Positions 1,422 to 54,784 of a DNA stretch of 64,000 bases are shown one piece after another. Position 1 is the stretch's first letter, and every line of letters begins with the position of its first letter. Under the pieces are notes generated by a model. The model was given only the letters and a program-made list of their open reading frames with translations, was not told the DNA's origin and did not search any database. The stretch spans positions 782,001 to 846,000 of the forward strand of contig OZ025825.1 in the NCBI GenBank assembly GCA_964019425.1. The letters run 5' to 3'. The translations under genes were made by a program, and so were the position numbers. The stretch is from Flectonema sp. DT1601. Lineage: Eukaryota > Euglenozoa > Diplonemea > Diplonemida > Diplonemidae.

Positions 1422-2342
1422 ATGATAACGTTCGGTGCGATTTCAGTTTTTGCGTACTTTGCTTCTTTGAGTTTTGCATTTCTTGTTGTGGTCAAGGATT
1501 TGAGTAGACGTGCTGACTGGGGATTGACGAGGAATGTAACGCTGGTTGTGTTTAGTATCGTTGCCTTCGCGTTCACTTGGTATCATATTATAAGTTGGAT
1601 GATTGGTGATATCGCTCGATATGAAAATCTTAATGAGTGGCTTGATAAAAGTGATTTATTCGTCGAAGCATACAAACAAGTTGCGCTGTCAGCTGAGCAT
1701 TGGTTCTGGTCGAGTCAGCTACTTACCTTCGTAGTACCTTGGGTTTTATTTGTATCTTTATGCACTAAGAAAGATAAAATATGGATTCCCTTGTCTTACA
1801 TCTGGCTTGGATTTGCTGGTGCTATAAGTCTTGCCTTACCATTATTCCTGATAAGATCGCAGTCGACTGTTCGATCACTTAAACTTCCACGTGGTGGAAA
1901 CACTCATTTCATAGTGTCGATGTTAGTGTTCATTTCACTTTGTTGCATTGTGGGAATGCCGTTTGTTAAAGATGAAGGAATCTATTTCGGTGTCTTATTA
2001 GGACTTTTACATGTTGCTCTGTTCCTTCTTCCGATTGCTTTTAATAGGTTTGGTTCACCAGATTTCTCTATTCTATTGAAACTAGTACTCACAGCTGTTG
2101 TTATTGCTTATGTTTATAATATATATTTGGTTTCATCTACATCACCTCAATTATTGTGGGAAGCAATTTGGTCGAACCATTGTCAAGCAAGTATCACGTT
2201 GGATTTGTTTTTTGTTTCTTCAATTACTCTGTATTCCATAAGTACCTCTTCTTCTTTATCGGTGGTTGTGACTACCTTGTTGACTATGCCTTTATTATCT
2301 CCCGGAGGGTCTTATATTTTATGGATGTTGTCGTCTTTGTGA
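1422..2342 (+). CDS. Multi-pass membrane protein, conserved but uncharacterised type
   Basis: A 306-residue integral membrane protein with seven to eight hydrophobic helices, at about residues 3-24, 41-62, 98-117, 126-148, 162-182, 187-207, 214-236 and 258-275. A lumenal or cytosolic segment between helices 2 and 3 carries the pattern NEWLDKSDLFVEAYKQ followed by HWFWSSQLL. From memory this W-L-x-D-x2-LF-x2-A...WxxS arrangement occurs in a family of fungal and algal membrane proteins with no assigned function; I could not test this. The first ATG in frame is 1422. An upstream extension would need a TTG start and is unlikely. The frame closes at TGA 2342 and an AATAAA-like signal follows at about 2353. 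Confidence 0.65.
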   Translation: MITFGAISVFAYFASLSFAFLVVVKDLSRRADWGLTRNVTLVVFSIVAFAFTWYHIISWMIGDIARYENLNEWLDKSDLFVEAYKQVALSAEHWFWSSQLLTFVVPWVLFVSLCTKKDKIWIPLSYIWLGFAGAISLALPLFLIRSQSTVRSLKLPRGGNTHFIVSMLVFISLCCIVGMPFVKDEGIYFGVLLGLLHVALFLLPIAFNRFGSPDFSILLKLVLTAVVIAYVYNIYLVSSTSPQLLWEAIWSNHCQASITLDLFFVSSITLYSISTSSSLSVVVTTLLTMPLLSPGGSYILWMLSSL

Positions 2343-2615
2343 ATAATTACACAAAAATAAAAGTTGATTAAAAAAAAAAAAAAAAAAAAAACTTGAAAGC
2401 AGAACTTGTGATGACCTAGTTATGGGGATACACTGTTGGTGTTTCCGTTCATTGGTGACCTTTTATTCTGTCTTCCTGAACTACTTTTCTTGTTGGAAGG
2501 ATCCCGACAAAGAGGTCCTTGTGAATCAGCTTTGATTGATGTTTTTAAAATTGGAATCGTGTTTTTTTTATTTCATCTTTATTTTTTGTATCAGTTTTTT
2601 ATATTTTCCACAAAA
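2343..2615. other. Short intergenic spacer with poly(A) tract and acceptor
   Basis: An AAAATAAAA signal at about 2353 is followed 10 bases later by a run of more than 20 A residues. Such runs are everywhere in this DNA, so this need not be a copied mRNA tail. A T-rich tract ending in TCAG at 2594 sits 21 bases before the kinesin start and fits a splice acceptor. Confidence 0.5.
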
Positions 2616-5600
2616 ATGGGTCCCCGACCAGGGCTGCCGTTGACTCCTCAGCGGGCACCAAGTGGTGTGCGCACTCGAACCCCTACTTCTCGTAACGCTG
2701 GGAGAGATGCAACACCACAGTCTGCCAGACTACACAGAGAACGAGCACACACTGATAGCTCTCAGAGAAGCTTTAGTGGAGGTGCTGCCATGAAACCAAC
2801 TTCTCTGGACAGCCAATTTTCAGAAGTCACTGAGCGCACAAAGACTCCCCGAAAGGGAAAGGCAAGCGGAGGCGAGAACGTTGTCGTCGCAGTTCGAGTT
2901 CGTTCTTTTCTCGAACGTGAGATGAAGGCTGGCGGTAAGGACTCGGAACTCTGCATTCGAATGAAGAATGAAACAACAGAAATAAAGAGTGACCGTGGTA
3001 AGAATCTCTTTAGTTTTGATCACTGCTTTTGGTCAAATGATATTCACGACCCTGAAGTTCCATACAGCAGTCAAGAACAAGTATACGACAATCTAGGAGC
3101 TCCTGTTGTTGAGAATGCTCTGAAGGGTTTCAACAGTTCTGTTATTGCTTATGGTCAAACAGGTTCTGGTAAATCCTATTCCATCTTTGGTCGTAAAGAT
3201 TCAGAACAGGCTGCAGACGAAGGTTTAATCCCCCGAGTCTGCAAAGAACTATTCCGACGAGTTGAAGCAAAGTCTGAAGAACAACCAGACGTTACTTATC
3301 GTATCACTGCTTCCATGATTGAAGTTTACATGGAGAAGGTTTATGATTTATTAAATCACAAAAACGTTCTTCCAATTAGAGGTGATCTTCAGAGAGGATT
3401 CGCTGTCCAGGGATCTAAGAGAAGAGAAGTGAAGTCCTACAGAGACATCAACAAGTTACTAAAAATTGGTGCTAAAGAGAAAACCATCGCTGAAACCCAA
3501 CTTAACAAAGACTCGTCAAGAGCGCATACTTTGTTTGAATTGGAAATCCACGCGAGCACTCAAAGTGTTACAAAGATCAGTAAGTTATCTCTTTGTGATT
3601 TAGCAGGTTCGGAACGTCAGAAGGATGCGAAGACTGTTATTGGAGGAGAAGAATTCAATCAGGCCTGTCAGATTAACAAATCGTTACTTTGTCTTGGTAA
3701 GTGTGTTGAAGCAGTTGTTCAAAAGGGAAGCGGAGCCCTGGTGACAGAATTCCGTAACAGTTCTCTAACGAAACTTCTTCAAGACTCAATTGGAGGGAAC
3801 TCCAAGACTGTGATCTTAGTTGCGATTTCACCGTCTGCAAAAGACGCCCACACGACATTACAGGCACTGCGATTTGCTGACCGTGCAAAGGGAATCCAAA
3901 CCCACGCCGTCATCAACGAGGACGCTATCTGGGAATCAAAGATGAACGCTCGCCTCATCGCTCAGATTTATGAAACAAAGATGCAGGCGCTTCAAAAAGA
4001 ATGGGACCTTGAACAGCAACAGGCTGAGATGACTCAAGCTCAACTCCGTCTTGAGCAAGAAGCTGCGGCTCTACAAGCTGAGAGAGAAAACCTCACAAAG
4101 CAAAGAGACGACATGACTCGTAAGAAGGAATTGTCGGATTCTGAGAAGGCAAAGATCGCAGCCAGAGAATCAGCGCTTGCGAAGAAGTTGCTACAGGTGC
4201 AGAGTGAATTTGCTCAAATTCAAGACAAGGCATCTGAACTTGAAGCAAAGTTATATTCAGAAGGTCAGAACGCAAAGAAGGAACGCGAAGACGTTGAAAA
4301 CGAACTTGACATCCAACAGGGAAAACACGACCTCCTACAACGTCAATACGATGAAGAAGTTGGAACTGCTAAACAAGAACTTGACGAAGCGAAGAAGGTT
4401 CACAAGATTGCTATGGATCAGCTGCAATCAGGACACCTGGCGGCAATGGAAAAGAAGGAAAAGAAGTACACAGAAGAGAGGAAAAGCTACGTACTGGAAA
4501 TGATGAATGCCATTACTAAGATAAAGAAAGAGTCCCAAGGAAAAGAAGAAAAGTGGAGATCTGAAAAGTCAAACTTCAAAAAGCAAATCGAAGACTTGGA
4601 ACACCAACTCCGATCTGGAAAACAAGACGTCGAACGTTTAGAACAACAAAACTCTGAACTTCGTGAAATGACTGAAGACCTCGACAGAAAGATATCTGAC
4701 GGAAACTTTCAAATAAGTAAACTAAACAGCACTAAAATTAGTGAATTAGAAACCCTTCAGGATCAACTAAATGCTGCCTCTTGGGGTAAGGAAGAAGCAA
4801 CAAACAAAATAACTCAACTCTACGAAGATCTCGGAGAAACTAACGGCAAGCTTCAGATCGCCGAAGAAGAAGTGACGGAAGTAAAACTTCTACTTCAGAG
4901 AGAAATTCCAGGGCTGGTCAATCCTGATCAACACACAGCATCACAGTTGACTTCTCTGTTGTTGGATTTACGTAGAAATGATAAGAGCAAACAGGAAGAC
5001 CTTTCAGTCAAATCTAAACTGATGCAACAAAAGCAAACAATGAAATTAGAATCACTCGCATCTAAACACATCGAAGACATTACTTCAATGAAAACACATC
5101 ACAAGTCAGCCCTTGACAGTACTGCAACTGCTCACGCTGAAGAGATTACTGCTTTAAAGGAAATGCATGAAGCGGAATCGAAGAAGCTTCGCGAATTTCA
5201 ATCAGAAATTGAAAACGACAGCTCAACTATCAGATCGGAGTCACTTCAGAAGACTCGTCAGCTTCAATCACTTCAGGATGAAGTTGAGATCCTGACCTCC
5301 AACCAGTCACTCGCAGAAAAACGAATCACATCAATGAAGCATCAGTTAGAGGTTTGTTTTTGTTTTTAGTGTTTTGTTTTAATCTAAAAGTTAAAGACAC
5401 TCAAACTTTTAATTAGTTTGTTCCCTTCGCCTTCCCTTCACCCCCCTCCGCTCAATGATGTTCGATCCCTGTCCCAGTAAAAGAAATTGTTGGGATAGTT
5501 TTAAACTTATCAAAGACTTCTCATCCTTACCTAGAGAGAGGTACTTCACGACAGACACACTTGTAGGCATCACCTACAGCGGCCCGTTCCTTGTCCAAGC

Positions 5601-34405: not shown

Positions 34406-34803
34406 TCCTTTTGTCATCACCCGAACGGTACATCACACGATCTCGATATGAAGAACGTCTTATGTTCTCATTTGATACGCTACCAAAGTTATGAAAAATT
34501 ACTAATTACTATAACAAGTTGTTGTTAAGAAGAGTTATTAGTTTAGACTTCACTACTAGAAGGTAGTCTTGTACTTCTTTAGTTCTGCTCTCCTCTATTT
34601 TTGCAGAATTGTTGTCTCAATAGCTGTCTGGTTATCAGTAGGTCTTTCGATTCTTTTTATCGGTCAGTGACTTGCTACTTGGAGCAGTCAAATTTAAATT
34701 TTATTTGTTTTCTTAAAGTGTGGGGGTCCGTTTCCTGTGTTTTTAAGAACCTTTCTGATAAACAATAGATATGGAGAAGAAAAAAAAATACAAAAAAAAA
34801 AAA
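34406..34803. other. Intergenic region, no gene seen
   Basis: About 400 bases of 3' UTR and spacer after the Akr1-like gene. It ends in an A-rich run into which the next element appears inserted. Confidence 0.5.
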
Positions 34804-34850
34804 GGGAAAACCTCTAATTCAACAAAAATAGTTTGCGAAATCGCCAACTC
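34804..34850 (+). repeat. Left terminal inverted repeat
   Basis: 47 bp from GGGAAAACC to CGCCAACTC. It is the reverse complement of 35946-35992 with two mismatches. Confidence 0.9.
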
Positions 34851-34863
34851 CCTACAAAAAAAA

Positions 34864-34888
34864 GTTGTCCACCAGGACTCGAACTTGA
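34864..34888 (-). other. tRNA 3'-end-like block with B box and T run
   Basis: On the minus strand this reads AGTTCGAGTCC, close to a Pol III B box, then CTGGTGGACAAC, then a run of T (34856-34863). No matching tRNA 5' half is seen, so it is at most a tRNA remnant. Confidence 0.3.
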
Positions 34889-34954
34889 CCCAAAAATTTG
34901 GCTTGCGGCGGGTTTTTTGTTTTTTAGCCTACCAAGCGGGAAGAGTGCAAGGGT

Positions 34955-34991
34955 GGCTTGCGTCCGCCAAATTCTTGGCGGGACGCAAGCC
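34955..34991. repeat. Strong GC-rich hairpin
   Basis: GGCTTGCGTC-CGCCAA (34955-34970) pairs with TTGGCGGGACGCAAGCC (34975-34991), with a single bulged base and a 4-base loop. It is followed at once by runs of C and then of about ten G. Confidence 0.8.
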
Positions 34992-35077
34992 CCCCCAACC
35001 CCCCCAAGGGGGGGGGGAGCCCCTAATAAAAGCCCGCCTGTTCCGTACAAAGTCCAACTTGAAAAAACAAATTTGCA

Positions 35078-35081
35078 ACTG

Positions 35082-35113
<32 letters not shown>

Positions 35114-35460
35114 TTCTAATCAAAGACGCGCATGAATGGACTAATGAGATTCCTTCTGTCCCTACCTACTATCTGGCGAACAGCAGTCAAGGGAACGGAC
35201 TTGAAACTGTCAGCGGGGAAAGAAGACCCTGTTGAGTTTGACTCTAGTCGGGTGTAGTTATAGGTGGGAGGTTTACCAACAATGAAATACCACTACTCTT
35301 ATCGTCGCTTTACTTATCCAATGATGGGGGAACGGCAGCTGCCTCTTCGGAGGTTAGGGTTTCGGACTCGTAGCTTTTCCGATTCCAGCGACAAACGGGC
35401 TTCGGCTCGACCCCTCGTTTGGAGACACCAGTCAGGTGGGGAGTTTGGCTGGGAGGGGCC
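35078..35460 (+). rRNA. Fragment of nuclear 28S (LSU) rRNA
   Basis: From TGACTCTCTTAAGGTAGCC through CGCGCATGAATGG, TCAGCGGGGAAAGAAGACC and AATGAAATACCACTAC to GTCAGGTGGGGAGTTTGGC, this follows conserved eukaryotic LSU rRNA in order. It includes the region used as target by R1/R2 elements elsewhere. Compared with yeast it lacks about 24 bases after the CTCTAGT block and has unusual bases where most rRNAs read GCGAAACCACAG. Neither the 28S start nor the peptidyl transferase core is present, so it is a fragment and not a functional LSU gene. Confidence 0.88.
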
Positions 35461-35560
35461 ACATTGCGGCTTCTAAGTCACGAAACCTACATCAATGATG
35501 AGGATCGTTAAGCCACATTTCTAAAGGTCAGGCTTTTACTAACGTGAGAATTTCTGTTCT
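35461..35560 (+). rRNA. Possible 28S piece near the 3' end, joined to the central piece
   Basis: Directly after GGGAGGGGCC the sequence reads GGCTTCTAAGTCACGAAACC, resembling the block that in 28S lies near the 3' end (GCCTCTAAGTCAGAATCC in yeast). If so, most of domains V and VI is missing between the two pieces. Similarity beyond the first 25 bases is weak. Confidence 0.4.
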
Positions 35561-35803
35561 CGATGGTTCGAATGTGTCTGACAAAAATTACCTAATTTGG
35601 AATGCTGCTTGAAGTCTGGTGAATTTTGGTTGGAGGTCTTAGTCTCACTGGTGAACTGCACAGTAACATTTTAAAGTGATCGATCACACGGGAGGGGTCT
35701 TGGTGATTTATTGCAACGGGAATATGTCTCAACTCGACCAGTGGGTGATCAATCCGCCCTTTGACTATGTTTTGGTCACATTTTCCGTCATTACGAAAAA
35801 GAG

Positions 35804-35885
35804 AAAAAAGGATGTCACGGGGTTCGAACCCGAGACCTCCGGGTCATGATTCGGCGGTCATAACCAATAAACCACCGGAGCTCCG
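35804..35885 (-). tRNA. tRNA-like module (degenerate) with Pol III-type T run
   Basis: The minus strand holds an A-box-like TGGTTTATTGG, a TCATGA stretch at the anticodon position (CAT would be Met) and a perfect B box GGTTCGAACCC. It ends GTGACATCC followed by TTTTTT. T-arm pairing is good at four of five positions. The acceptor stem does not pair, because the 5' side reads as its own palindrome CGGAGCTCCG, and the anticodon stem is poor. I read it as a tRNA-derived pseudogene or SINE-style promoter module. Confidence 0.5.
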
Positions 35886-35945
35886 AAAATTCTGAAAGTT
35901 TTCCCGTCATGTTGGGTTGTTTCGAGCGGTTAAAATTTTTGTGAT

Positions 35946-35992
35946 GAGTTGGCGATTTCGCAAACTATTTTTGTGGAATTAGGGGTTTTCCC
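35946..35992 (-). repeat. Right terminal inverted repeat
   Basis: 47 bp from GAGTTGGCG to GGTTTTCCC, mirroring the left repeat with two mismatches. Confidence 0.9.
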
Positions 35993-36183
35993 AAAAAAAA
36001 AAGTGGTGAGTTAAAAAAAGTAAAAAAGACAAAAAAAAAAAACAAAAAAAAATCATATGAAAAAAAAAAAAAAAAAAAGAGAACAGAATACCAACCCTGA
36101 GTATGTTTTTTATAAAACAGTTTTTTTTTAAAAATGTAAAAAAAAATTTATAAAGAAAAATACTATTTTTTCACTTAAAAGGT

Positions 36184-41090: not shown

Positions 41091-41960
41091 ATGGCAGTTG
41101 ATCCCCAGCTTGCGAATGATAGAGCGAGACTGATCTTAACCATTCAAAGACAAACAGAAACACTTGATAAGCTACACAGCGCTTTGAGAGATAATAAAGA
41201 ACGTCTTACTGCTGCGGAGACGAGTAATAAACATTTAGAAAATGAGAATAGAGGACTGCTGGAACTTCGATTAGAGAACGCTGACTTTAGAAGAGAATTG
41301 GGAATGCTTCAGTCGATGGTTGAGGATTTCCAACGTAGACAAGAAGAGTTAAAAACAAGAGAACAGCTATCTTTGGATCAACAGGCTGAGATTCATGTAA
41401 CTGAATCGAAGATAAAAGACTCTCAACTATTCAAACTGTCGGAGGAGGTTACTTTACTTCGAAGATCTGTTTCAGAGAAAGACAACAGAATCTCTCTTCT
41501 TGTTGAGAAGATGACGATGGTGAATCCACCTGATGTTGAAATCAAACTTGAGATCGAAGACATGCATCAAAAGATGATTGAACTTCAACAGGAATTAAAA
41601 ATGAGAGCAGAGCAAGTCCGAGCAGTCACCGCGCAGTCTGACCATCTAAAGAGCAGCTTAGTAAATGCTAACGAGGAACTTCAATTAAAGACCGAAACTA
41701 TTCAGGCATTAGAAAGAGAAAACAAAGCTCTTCAGAAGAATGTCAGCCAACTTATTCGTCAGGTTCATGTTAACAAATCGACTGGTGGTGGTGGTGGTGG
41801 TGGTGGTGCTTCACATCTCACTCCTATTCTGAATGAAGCAACTGCTGTGTTGTCGACACCTCTCCCGCAACCACCACTTTCACCTTCTAGGATAACAAAT
41901 GGAAATCTTTATTCAACTATGTCACGAATTGAGAATTATCGTAATCAACGTCGAAACTGA
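41091..41960 (+). CDS. Coiled-coil protein, unrecognised
   Basis: A 289-residue protein that is almost wholly helical coiled coil from residue 8 to about 225 (heptads such as LENENRGLLELRLENADFRRELG), with a short break at the VNPPD stretch near residue 146. A poly-Gly run encoded by GGT repeats follows at about 234-241, then a Pro-rich tail ending in MSRIENYRNQRRN. No family signature is seen. It could be a structural or centrosomal/flagellar scaffold, but that is only a guess from composition. Confidence 0.75.
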   Translation: MAVDPQLANDRARLILTIQRQTETLDKLHSALRDNKERLTAAETSNKHLENENRGLLELRLENADFRRELGMLQSMVEDFQRRQEELKTREQLSLDQQAEIHVTESKIKDSQLFKLSEEVTLLRRSVSEKDNRISLLVEKMTMVNPPDVEIKLEIEDMHQKMIELQQELKMRAEQVRAVTAQSDHLKSSLVNANEELQLKTETIQALERENKALQKNVSQLIRQVHVNKSTGGGGGGGGASHLTPILNEATAVLSTPLPQPPLSPSRITNGNLYSTMSRIENYRNQRRN

Positions 41961-42015
41961 CGACCACACCACGTTCAGGATTCCCAGTCAGCATTTTGAA
42001 TTGTTTTTAATACAA

Positions 42016-42125
42016 CTCACGTTCCCTGTTAGTGGGTGAACAATCCAACCCTTAGACAATACTGCTTGTCTAGGTTAAGAAGAGCCGACATCGATTACGT
42101 CGCTCTTCTGGTAACTTCTCTAACA
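42016..42125 (-). rRNA. Antisense fragment of 28S rRNA with internal gaps
   Basis: Read on the minus strand, this runs GAGAAGTTACCA, AGCGACGT, TCGATGTCGGCTCTTC, AAGCAG, and TTGGATTGTTCACCCACTAA-AGGGAACGTGAG, in the same order as LSU rRNA domain V. It lacks two segments present in normal 28S, including the CAGGGATAACTGGC part of the peptidyl transferase region. It begins about 55 bases after the stop of the coiled-coil gene, so it may lie in that gene's 3' UTR, antisense to rRNA. It is a pseudogene fragment. Confidence 0.8.
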
Positions 42126-42285
42126 GAGTTGAGCAATGACACTAATGGTCCTCAACGCTCTTATTGGTGGTATATTTCATTTTATTTCATCAAATGACGG
42201 GTCGTTGTCTAACCTGTTTGTGTAGTTGGGTTGCAGTGAGCAGTTCTCGAATCGATACGTTGCTTTTAGAATCGGCAGCAGAAAA

Positions 42286-51161: not shown

Positions 51162-52346
51162 ATGTCTCACCGTAAGTTCGAAGTACCACGTCACGGTCAT
51201 TTGGGTTACCTCCCACGTAAGAGATGTCGTCACATCAGAGGACGTGTCAGATCATTCCCAATTGACGACGCTGCTCAGGAGCCACACTTGACCGCGTTCA
51301 TGGGATACAAGGCGGGTATGACCCACATTGTCCGTGAGCTTGACAGAGCTGGATCCAAGATGCACAAGAAGGAGGTCTGCGAGCCAGTCACCATCCTTGA
51401 CGTCCCAGAGATGGTTGTTGTTGGTATCGTCGGATACAAGCCAACTGCCCGTGGTCTCCGTGCCGTCACCACCGTGTGGGCCCAGAAGCTTGGAGAGGCG
51501 ATGCTCCGTCGTTACTACAAAAGCTGGTTCTCATCGAAGCAGAAGGCTTTCACCAAGTACGTTGCTGACTACGAGAAGAACGCTGCCAGCAGAGAAACCA
51601 CCTTCGGACGCATGGCCAAGCACGCGACCGTTCTCCGTGTGTTGGCACACACCAGCCCAAGCGCCTTGAAATTGGGAAGCAAGAAGGCTCAGGTCTGTGA
51701 GATTCAGATCAACGGAGGAGACATGGCGCAGAAGATCAAGTACGCCCAGTCCCTTTTGGAGAAGAAGGTGACCGTTGACCAGGTTTTCACTGAGTCCGAG
51801 AGATGTGATGTTATCGGAGTCAGCAAGGGTCACGGTATGGAGGGTGTGACCCACAGATGGGGAGTCAGCAGACTTCCAAGAAAGTCTCACAGAGGTCTTC
51901 GTAAGGTTGCCTGTATTGGAGCATGGCATCCTTCCAGAGTCTCGTACTCTGTTGCCCGTGCTGGTCAGAACGGATTCCATCACCGTACTGAGTTGAACAA
52001 GAAGATTTACAAAATCGGAGTTGAGGCTGCCAAGGCTGAGAACGGTAACGCCACCACCTCAATCGACATCACCGGAAAGGACATCACTCCATTGGGAGGA
52101 TTCCCTCACTACGGAGTTGTTAACAACCAGTACGTCATGTTGAAGGGTTCATGCCCTGGACCAGTGAAGCGTGTCATCACCCTTCGTCGTCCACTTGCCC
52201 CACAAACCAGCAGAGCTGCTCAGGAACAAATCGACTTGAAGTTCATCGACACCTCATCCAAGATGGGACACGGTCACTTCCAGACCCAGACTGAGAGAGC
52301 AAAGTTCATGGGACTCCGTAAGAAGGACATCCAGAAGCAGGCATAA
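51162..52346 (+). CDS. RPL3: Large-subunit ribosomal protein L3 (uL3), copy 1
   Basis: A 394-residue ribosomal protein that reaches the peptidyl transferase centre. It begins [21 protein letters not shown], the conserved eukaryotic start, and continues with [48 protein letters not shown] and the basic C-terminus. Length fits the family (about 390-405). Codon use is strongly biased to C- and G-ending codons (AAG, GGA, CGT, ACC), unlike neighbouring genes, as expected for high expression. The protein is identical to copy 2, and the coding DNA differs at four synonymous sites that I could find. Near-identity begins at the acceptor CAG 16 bases before ATG and ends at GTGGTATGT about 40 bases after the stop. 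Confidence 0.97.
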
Positions 52347-53599
52347 ACACTTAGCTGATGAGGTTGGTGTTGTGGTATGTAATCCGTCACATTTATTTAG
52401 ATCTAGTCTTGCCCCTCCCAGCCTCCACATTCGGAAGAAGGCTATGACCAAAGTTAGCGGGACCAACCACTTGCTCTGGGGTACCTCGGTAGCGTTCAGC
52501 AGTATTGTGATCCGACTCGTGGATCTCGCTTCCATCAAATATGTAATCCGTTACATCCACAGCCGCGTTACCAATCCAAGGGGAATGGTCCTCACATAAA
52601 TCCTTCGACGTACTAGCTAACAGGCCAGAACCGAGAAAAAACCCACATACTGATGCGTTTGCCATGGCTTGCAAGTCTATACTATATATATATAATAATG
52701 TACTCCATTGTGTAGTATATTATGGTTGCTATCTTAGCTATTCTATAACGGAGCTTTATATTTTGTAATTTTTTTTAATTCCAAGATTTAACCTTCATTA
52801 CTTACTTTAGTATTATAAAGGTTTATTACTGTTTCTATTGTGAAACTTATCACCCTTTTGGGTATGCCCATTCTCAACCAGGTATTTGGTAATCACGTTA
52901 ATCTCTTATATAATTCTCTCTGAGTTGGGTGATTCACGGTTTAAACTCGTTAGACCTTACGATACGGTCGTTCTTTTTTTTTTTTTTTTTGCATTTAACA
53001 AAGTATTGTAGGAACGAAAAATAATGTTGGGCAGCACACGTAAACCTCCTTTAGTTTTATCAGTTTAAGTCGGTTCACGGGGGGTTTCGTGACACAAACA
53101 AAAACATCACAACAAAGTGTTCTTTTGACTAATAATAGTTTAAGATAAAAGTCAATTTTTTTTTTTTTTTTTTTTTAAAATCTATCTTAGATGATAAAGT
53201 GAACAACAAGTTCTGAAAACAAAACAAAACCAAAACAGTACCTCATTGTGAAGTGCACAAGTAGTCCGCTGTAAACAATGGCACATAAAGCCGCAGCGGG
53301 GGGGGTGGTAAGCTCTTATGAAAAGAAAACATTAAAAAAAAAAACATTCAAAAAAAATAAAAAGAGTCTTTGATATCAGATAATGTAAAGCGTCACCCAA
53401 CAGTTATTTATTATTTCCTTCTTCAGGTGAACTGATGACTGATATCAGTTGTCAGGTTGTGTTGTTCAGGTGGCTCTCATTACGGATCTGTTATTGTTGT
53501 CGCTTTGTAATGATGTCACGTGGTAAGATGCGTCCACTTTGTTACTCTCTGTTTTCTTGTTGTATGCTCATTCTCTTCCCCAGAGCTTCTCACCACAAA
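52347..53599. other. Spacer between the two RPL3 copies
   Basis: About 1.25 kb. It starts with the roughly 35-base 3' block shared with copy 2. A GC-richer part at about 52390-52675 has open frames on both strands that I cannot assign; ATGTAATCCGT-ACAT occurs twice near its ends. The duplicated element 53024-53102 and T/A runs follow. A pyrimidine tract ending CTTCCCCAG (AG at 53583) precedes copy 2. Confidence 0.55.
53024..53102 (+). ncRNA. Duplicated structured element, copy 2 (candidate non-coding RNA)
   Basis: Matches 7244-7312 over nearly its full length, with small insertions. It keeps GGCAGCACAC, the AAGTCGGTTCACGG block and the TCACG/CGTGA hairpin. It lies next to a T run of about 17. 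Confidence 0.4.
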
Positions 53600-54784
53600 A
53601 TGTCTCACCGTAAGTTCGAAGTACCACGTCACGGTCATTTGGGTTACCTCCCACGTAAGAGATGTCGTCACATCAGAGGACGTGTCAGATCATTCCCAAT
53701 TGACGACGCTGCTCAGGAGCCACACTTGACCGCGTTCATGGGATACAAGGCGGGTATGACCCACATTGTCCGTGAGCTTGACAGAGCTGGATCCAAGATG
53801 CACAAGAAGGAGGTCTGCGAGCCAGTCACCATCCTTGACGTCCCAGAGATGGTTGTTGTTGGTATCGTAGGATACAAGCCAACTGCCCGTGGTCTCCGTG
53901 CCGTCACCACCGTGTGGGCCCAGAAGCTTGGAGAGGCGATGCTCCGTCGTTACTACAAAAGCTGGTTCTCATCGAAGCAGAAGGCTTTCACCAAGTACGT
54001 TGCTGACTACGAGAAGAACGCTGCCAGCAGAGAAACCACCTTCGGACGCATGGCCAAGCACGCAACCGTTCTCCGTGTGTTGGCACACACCAGCCCAAGC
54101 GCCTTGAAATTGGGAAGCAAGAAGGCTCAGGTCTGTGAGATTCAGATCAACGGAGGAGACATGGCGCAGAAGATCAAGTACGCCCAGTCCCTTTTGGAGA
54201 AGAAGGTGACCGTTGACCAGGTTTTCACTGAGTCCGAGAGATGTGATGTTATCGGAGTCAGCAAGGGTCACGGTATGGAGGGTGTGACCCACAGATGGGG
54301 AGTCAGCAGACTTCCAAGAAAGTCCCACAGAGGTCTTCGTAAGGTTGCCTGTATTGGAGCATGGCATCCTTCCAGAGTCTCGTACTCTGTTGCCCGTGCT
54401 GGTCAGAACGGATTCCATCACCGTACTGAGTTGAACAAGAAGATTTACAAAATCGGAGTTGAGGCTGCCAAGGCTGAGAACGGTAACGCCACCACCTCGA
54501 TCGACATCACCGGAAAGGACATCACTCCATTGGGAGGATTCCCTCACTACGGAGTTGTTAACAACCAGTACGTCATGTTGAAGGGTTCATGCCCTGGACC
54601 AGTGAAGCGTGTCATCACCCTTCGTCGTCCACTTGCCCCACAAACCAGCAGAGCTGCTCAGGAACAAATCGACTTGAAGTTCATCGACACCTCATCCAAG
54701 ATGGGACACGGTCACTTCCAGACCCAGACTGAGAGAGCAAAGTTCATGGGACTCCGTAAGAAGGACATCCAGAAGCAGGCATAA
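53600..54784 (+). CDS. RPL3: Large-subunit ribosomal protein L3 (uL3), copy 2
   Basis: The encoded protein is identical to that of copy 1. The frame stays open upstream to about 53435, but that extension is not shared with copy 1, contains the acceptor CAG at 53583 and has no ribosomal similarity, so MSHRKFEV at 53600 is the start. The four synonymous differences from copy 1 and the different flanking sequence show a recent duplication or ongoing gene conversion limited to the exon and its splice-like borders. Confidence 0.97.

Follow-up and report, generated by a model that had tools for sequence, protein, structure and literature searches.

The element at positions 34804-35992 of the window (the whole 64,000-nt stretch of Flectonema sp. 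DT1601 DNA that was analysed) is very probably a Pack-MULE-type member of the Mutator-like (MULE) DNA transposons, a non-autonomous element that holds captured host DNA and would be moved in trans. We read it as a non-autonomous MULE because it shares its terminal inverted repeats (TIRs) with 2.5-kb MULEs that code for a transposase in the same genome, and because its copies are flanked by 9-bp target site duplications. Judged from sequence, the MULE assignment itself merits high confidence and any role of RNA polymerase III (Pol III) low confidence; the route by which the 28S cargo was captured can be given with moderate confidence.

Architecture and copies of the element

The element spans 34804-35992 and is bounded by inverted repeat arms of 57 nt that are 91% complementary (Table 1). 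Their outer 47 nt differ at two positions, in agreement with an earlier note on this DNA, which had described 47-bp TIRs with 45 of 47 bases matching. Also borne out is the strong hairpin reported there: the GC-rich region near the left end folds at -63.7 kcal/mol with z = -5.1. The same note had seen no transposase, and we likewise find the longest open frame inside the element to be 101 codons, with no Pfam match up to E = 1 for the translations of five of its six longest frames.

Table 1. Features of the element and its flanks, in window coordinates
Feature	Position	Strand	Remarks
Left target site duplication copy	34795..34803		9 bp, A9 within a longer A run; weak on its own
Left TIR	34804..34860	+	begins GGGAAAACC; nucleotide diversity 0.002, n = 35 copies
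B-box-like motif followed by T8	34856..34885	-	looks like a tRNA gene 3' end; present as well in autonomous L051 and L053; left ~95 bp common to L051-L053
GC-rich region with strong hairpin	34938..35045	+	stem arms 34951-34965 and 34981-34995; most variable part, n = 35 copies
Captured piece of host 28S rRNA gene	35077..35453	+	22-nt deletion relative to the host gene
Cargo without identified donor	35454..35803		no better than shuffles against the host rDNA parts compared; ~110 copies by internal marker
Degenerate tRNA-derived module	35804..35881	-	A- and B-box-like motifs, T6 directly after; best match host tRNA-Ile(UAU) over 35818-35881; ~109 copies; no covariance match
Right TIR	35936..35992	-	nucleotide diversity 0.000, n = 35 copies
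Right target site duplication copy	35993..36001		9 bp

Copies of this structure are numerous. When the host's own genome (89,535,806 bases on 92 contigs) was searched with the whole element and the best 40 of 687 first-look candidates were scored, 31 of these 40 places proved to be full-length at 91-100% identity. A 35-base TIR pattern, with up to three mismatches allowed, marks 286 ends (144 forward, 142 reverse; none for the reversed control), and of two interior markers one is found 110 times, the other 109. We then have 50 loci that were read individually, 20 from a second set and 30 being the best matches of the whole-element search, so that the sample is skewed towards intact copies. They contain 46 complete TIR pairs: five loci (L018, L023, L063, L064 and L066) lack a complete pair and stand outside the 46, and L009 gave two.

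The target sites of these 46 elements are strikingly uniform in kind. The duplication is exactly 9 bp long, the length of roughly 9 bp being typical of MULEs, and its two copies are identical at 44 elements and differ by a single base at the remaining two (L020 and L059). Duplicated sites have a mean GC content of 1.2% and are often runs of A or T, the window copy, with its A9 set in A runs, among them. For 23 of the 46 elements there is an empty-site counterpart that spans the joined flanks, with best identities of 84-99%. One type of flank is common to 18 of the 46 insertions, which lie in both orientations and include three autonomous copies; the duplication TTTATTTTT recurs at eight of the 18, and TRF found tandem repeats of about 255 bp, rich in A/T, in the flanks of three of the 18 (L014, L016 and L026).

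The earlier note had suggested that the element might belong to a non-autonomous TIR family carrying rDNA, to be checked by an assembly-wide search for paired TIRs and to be given up if the genome held no other pair. Copy number, 9-bp duplications and empty sites all back the family: 286 TIR ends, about 110 interior copies and 46 pairs, 44 of them with identical duplications, together with the full-length copies, exclude a genome devoid of further pairs. Might the inverted ends still stem from a single local inversion that took in an rDNA insertion, or from an artefact of assembly? We found no point in favour of either. Some 110 copies are built alike, lie on many contigs and occupy differing target sites, which argues so directly against both readings that we attach practically no weight to them.

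Variation among copies is unevenly distributed along the element. The two TIRs have a nucleotide diversity of 0.002 and 0.000 (35 copies, each 1150-1320 bp long), the 28S piece has 0.013, the cargo at 35454-35803 and the tRNA-derived module have 0.020 each, and the hairpin has 0.10. The low values for the TIRs derive in part from the choice of copies by a TIR pattern with at most three mismatches, although the variation seen lies far under that limit. A special constraint on the 28S piece finds no clear support, with 31 segregating sites in 377 positions there against 39 in 348 in the 35454-35803 cargo.

Autonomous relatives and known kinds of element

Three loci (L051, L052 and L053) carry elements of 2477-2543 bp with complete TIR pairs and lack 28S sequence. 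What they have in common with the rRNA-bearing element is confined to the left ~95 bp (98% identical) and the right 57 bp (100%). Of the three, L051 is the one for which the open reading frame was read out: a single frame of 648 aa lies between its TIRs, in which Pfam recognizes a MULE transposase domain (E 4.7e-6) at 27.4 bits, just under the curated cut-off of 27.6. In a genome-wide search for the MULE domain, which lists 83 places, the same stretch scores 31.7, above that cut-off, and the domain matches of all three loci are enclosed by TIR pairs of the family. By eye, the L051 frame also has SWIM-type and CCHC-type zinc motifs. A marker drawn from it occurs 18 times in the genome. Relatives in a very large protein collection number six: five come from ENA and are 44-98% identical, though one of these aligns over just 19% of the query, and the sixth, from JGI, is 28% identical. 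The same domain search turned up a second MULE group, with the best PF10551 scores, where for example C59:314974-327684 has four matches spaced exactly 4146 bases apart.

The element thus has its TIRs in common with elements that encode a MULE transposase, and the suggestion that it might represent a new class has to be dropped, as its ends belong to a MULE family with transposase-coding members in the same genome. Plant MULEs usually have TIRs of more than 100 bp, and those here measure 57 bp, a difference we do not take as defining. TIR lengths given for other MULEs include 99 bp in Hop and 22 bp in Mutyl (PMC2725143). A full-length relative with the same ends probably spread the element through the genome: a MULE transposase would bind the common TIRs and move the element in trans by cut and paste. 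The true helper could nevertheless be a different autonomous subfamily, because the sequence outside the TIRs that is common with L051-L053 is short (left positions 58-95 only).

Given its contents, one might instead take the element for a 28S- or tRNA-derived SINE, or another retroposon, copied from RNA by a LINE and bounded by TIRs through coincidence. 28S and tRNA parts are typical SINE material, and 28S-derived SINEs (SINE28) are RNA-mediated, lack TIRs and have target duplications of variable length. SINEs headed by a tRNA may exist in this genome: an insertion at element positions 1106-1569 of L056, with two tRNA-like stretches and a run of more than 30 T (poly-A on the other strand), resembles by eye a tRNA-headed element with a poly-A tail, though Rfam at the gathering threshold finds no tRNA match in L056. 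However, the element in question is bounded on either side by a 57-bp TIR, its family makes duplications of a constant 9 bp (44 of 46) and shows no A tail at a fixed end, and the same TIRs also enclose a MULE transposase gene. The marks of a 28S-derived SINE (no TIRs, a 3' tail, variable duplications) are therefore not those found here, and we consider an origin by retroposition very improbable. SINE28 resembles the present family in being a dispersed short repeat with 28S sequence and differs in its RNA route, its want of TIRs and its variable duplications.

The better comparison for a non-autonomous MULE is with Pack-MULEs, elements with MULE-type TIRs and 9-bp duplications that lack a transposase, contain captured host DNA and are multiplied in trans. 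The element matches plant Pack-MULEs, and Pack-TYPE elements, in its MULE TIRs, its 9-bp duplications, the absence of a transposase and the presence of host DNA, the step in trans being one that we infer. Its interior stems from host sequence present elsewhere (28S and, in L065, 18S). It departs from the plant cases in three respects: these carry exons of protein genes, whereas the cargo identified here is rRNA and tRNA-derived DNA; the host is a protist outside the plants; and most of the about 110 copies seem to go back to a single capture event. Because the usual plant case is a captured fragment of a protein gene, we file the element only as Pack-MULE-like; the ~350 bp at 35454-35803, for which no donor was found, may still hold such a fragment. 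The kind of element is, in other words, already known, and the combination of rRNA and tRNA-derived cargo is a new variant of it.

Other systems are more distant. In Pseudocercospora fijiensis, a hAT transposon carries histone H3-like sequences, which are borne by 471 repeats (PMC6710886). There too, a TIR transposon took up and amplified a host housekeeping gene, but the TIR is 20 bp, the duplications are 8 bp, the gene is a protein gene and the 9.5-kb element keeps a hAT-type domain. MULEs of protists include the TvMULEs of Trichomonas and EMULE-Ei1 of Entamoeba, the latter 2,882 bp long with a 9-bp duplication (PMC2725143). They are alike in having MULE transposases in protists; the portion of the source on which we draw mentions no rRNA or tRNA cargo for them and describes TvMULEs as being without typical long TIRs, unlike the element here. 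In titles and abstract openings of the open-licence papers searched, we found no report of a MULE or other TIR element with 28S cargo.

The tRNA-derived modules

The tRNA-like module described in the earlier note, with A box, B box and T run, stands as a tRNA-derived stretch with A- and B-box-like motifs and a T run, but it is degenerate, lies on the minus strand and finds no covariance match. Over 64 nt it aligns ungapped with host tRNA-Ile(UAU) at a score of 60, against 20.3 +/- 2.8 (maximum 34) in 200 shuffles. A closer host tRNA may exist since 20 of 63 host tRNA places were compared, the 63 being those scored out of 4699 candidates. The tRNA covariance model RF00005 has no match to the element up to E = 5, and ARAGORN at its default threshold calls no tRNA gene in it. 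At an 80% threshold ARAGORN calls tRNA-Ser for the right module of L001 as well as that of L009, and tRNA-Met for L054, weak evidence given that about 3-7 calls per element are made among eight elements at that setting. The remaining modules are closer to background: the right module of the autonomous copies scores 26 against host tRNAs, at the edge of the shuffles (18.6 +/- 2.6, maximum 29), and the left module of the rRNA element is also at the shuffle edge. Going by these comparisons, a tRNA origin is well supported for the right module and plausible for the others.

Whether such modules are working Pol III promoters, kept because transcription through the ends aids expression or transposition of the element, is a separate matter. 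An internal B box followed by a T run occurs twice in the element, against a mean of 0.05 in 200 shuffles, and once more elsewhere in the 64-kb window; in autonomous L051 and L053 there are three, the mean for shuffles of L001 and L051 being about 0.05. At least one such pair is present in each of the eight elements scanned, always in minus-strand orientation; at 12 loci of the second MULE group there is none. The combination thus exceeds shuffles in autonomous and non-autonomous members alike, the spacing from A box to B box is preserved in the right module, and the relaxed tRNA-Ser and tRNA-Met calls point the same way. Several observations argue against promoter function. Besides the missing covariance match, the right module folds with z = -1.2 (24 of 200 shuffles fold equally well), its diversity of 0.020 is the same as that of the unmatched cargo, the relaxed ARAGORN calls are accompanied by two to six others per element, and the autonomous modules match host tRNAs just at the shuffle edge. 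Moreover, L059 is without the right module and yet has full TIRs and near-perfect duplications. We consider selectively kept Pol III promoters unlikely on balance, and would call Pol III transcription of the element no more than possible. Pol III units would be an unusual feature for a DNA transposon, should the tRNA-derived modules turn out to be active.

Captured rRNA gene pieces and their dispersal

Host rDNA was located through its 5.8S gene, and a stretch of contig C92 served as reference. Against it, element positions 274-650 (377 nt) align by BLAST with 373 of 405 columns identical, 29 gap columns and 3 substitutions, most of the gap columns being accounted for by a single 22-nt deletion; a longer alignment has 4 substitutions and 31 gap columns. 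The nuclear 28S segment seen in the earlier note is accordingly real and close to the host's own gene, at 3-4 substitutions. It is present in 42 of the 46 elements, with substitution levels of 0.25-2.5% relative to the host gene, and is missing from four, namely the three autonomous copies and L059. In one copy at L009 (element at 101), 407 identities, one mismatch and one inserted base are found with no deletion, and we regard that copy as nearest to the original capture for its 407 identities, single mismatch and lack of a deletion. Among the 42 carriers, 41 have the left boundary of the 28S piece at the same place, give or take a few bases, as would be expected of a single capture followed by amplification; in the remaining one, L060, the match begins later, with an internal deletion in that region. 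The host 28S itself shows no break in the 1690 nt read. An unbroken 28S has also been reported for Diplonema papillatum, unlike kinetoplastids and euglenids (PMC10161547). Apart from the contigs with strong 5.8S matches, weaker scattered 5.8S matches occur on C61, C69, C55, C22, C62 and C85 and are possibly old pieces of rDNA.

Two copies differ in cargo. L065 (C6:308491-309801), which has a clean duplication, ATTCTTTTT, holds 140 nt of host 18S (99.3% identical) that interrupt its 28S part. In L059 the family ends (left ~153 and right ~106 bp) surround an unrelated interior of about 740 bp; by eye this could be taken for the tail of a LINE reverse transcriptase, but Pfam gave just a weak zinc-ribbon match (E 0.017) and we left it unnamed. 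Cargo capture therefore seems to have occurred more than once.

A second 28S piece, given as probable in the earlier note, could not be upheld. In Smith-Waterman comparison with the host rDNA parts the stretch 35454-35810 scores at the level of shuffles, and its sole BLAST match there (20 nt of spacer at 90%, E 0.007) is taken as chance. The rDNA compared comprised 18S from model position 551 to 28S position 1273, 28S 1704-3401, 491 bp of mid-28S, and 1.4 kb of spacer with the start of 18S. Nor was a donor of the ~350 bp at 35454-35803 found among ten seemingly unpaired places in two lists of interior-marker matches, picked by eye as a subset of such places: nine are element copies, either partial in the stretch read or with internal losses. 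The tenth, L097 (C50:280641-280770), is an isolated 130-nt fragment identical to the window copy, with no TIRs or other element parts in 701 bp, and we read it as a templated fragment insertion rather than as the donor. Elsewhere in the window, just after an open reading frame (region 41999-42094), a separate 82-nt 28S piece lies at 42013-42094 on the minus strand; it comes from another part of the gene and is 96% identical to the host.

How might rRNA sequence have entered the element? We suggest, with moderate confidence in the route, that the 28S piece would have entered once, as filler DNA copied from rDNA during gap repair inside an element, and would then have been amplified by transposition, a later event adding 18S DNA to at least one copy. 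More generally, fragments of rDNA and of transposons would often be copied in during gap or filler repair in this genome, and the MULE would then have multiplied one such event.

This bears on 28S pieces scattered through diplonemid genomes. For Diplonema papillatum some 3600 of them have been described, of up to 10% of the gene, and likened to SINEs and TRIMs; a MULE is mentioned among the DNA-transposon ORFs of the same species (PMC10161547). Those pieces are dispersed like the ones here, and the relevant part of the description identifies no vehicle. In the present genome a marker from the core of the 28S piece occurs 129 times, rDNA arrays included. Of the 36 exact places listed for it on contigs C1-C24, the C18 array aside, 34 have a TIR or interior marker of the MULE family no more than 700 bp away, counted from listed exact matches of those markers, the exceptions being C7:576422 and C10:1048353. 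On this count the MULE looks to be the main vehicle of this 28S segment in this genome. Matches to a different 28S segment (window 41960-42160), for which the best 40 of 89 candidates were scored, number 41; 23 of them are dispersed beyond the window and the arrays, with C83 counted as array, and the MULE need not explain all pieces.

A more sweeping interpretation would hold that structural-RNA genes (first 28S, later 18S, with tRNA-derived modules even in autonomous members) are taken up time and again by a diplonemid MULE family, that this is a main route by which 28S is scattered, and that the retained B boxes and T runs are Pol III units kept for use. We put this forward tentatively, and think it rather doubtful as a whole. 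The element is nonetheless a concrete candidate vehicle for scattered 28S pieces like those of D. papillatum. Pack-MULE-type capture would extend to rRNA genes and to Euglenozoa, and 28S copy counts and the mapping of rDNA reads in such genomes are open to confusion by transposon copies.

As to the surroundings of the element, 23 of the 25 open reading frames of at least 150 aa in the window are on the plus strand. Two near-identical genes for ribosomal protein L3 lie in tandem at 51162-52346 and 53435-54784; their product is 76% identical to that of Diplonema papillatum, the nearest entry under an organism's name, which makes a diplonemid host most likely, and transcript or metagenome entries reach 81%.
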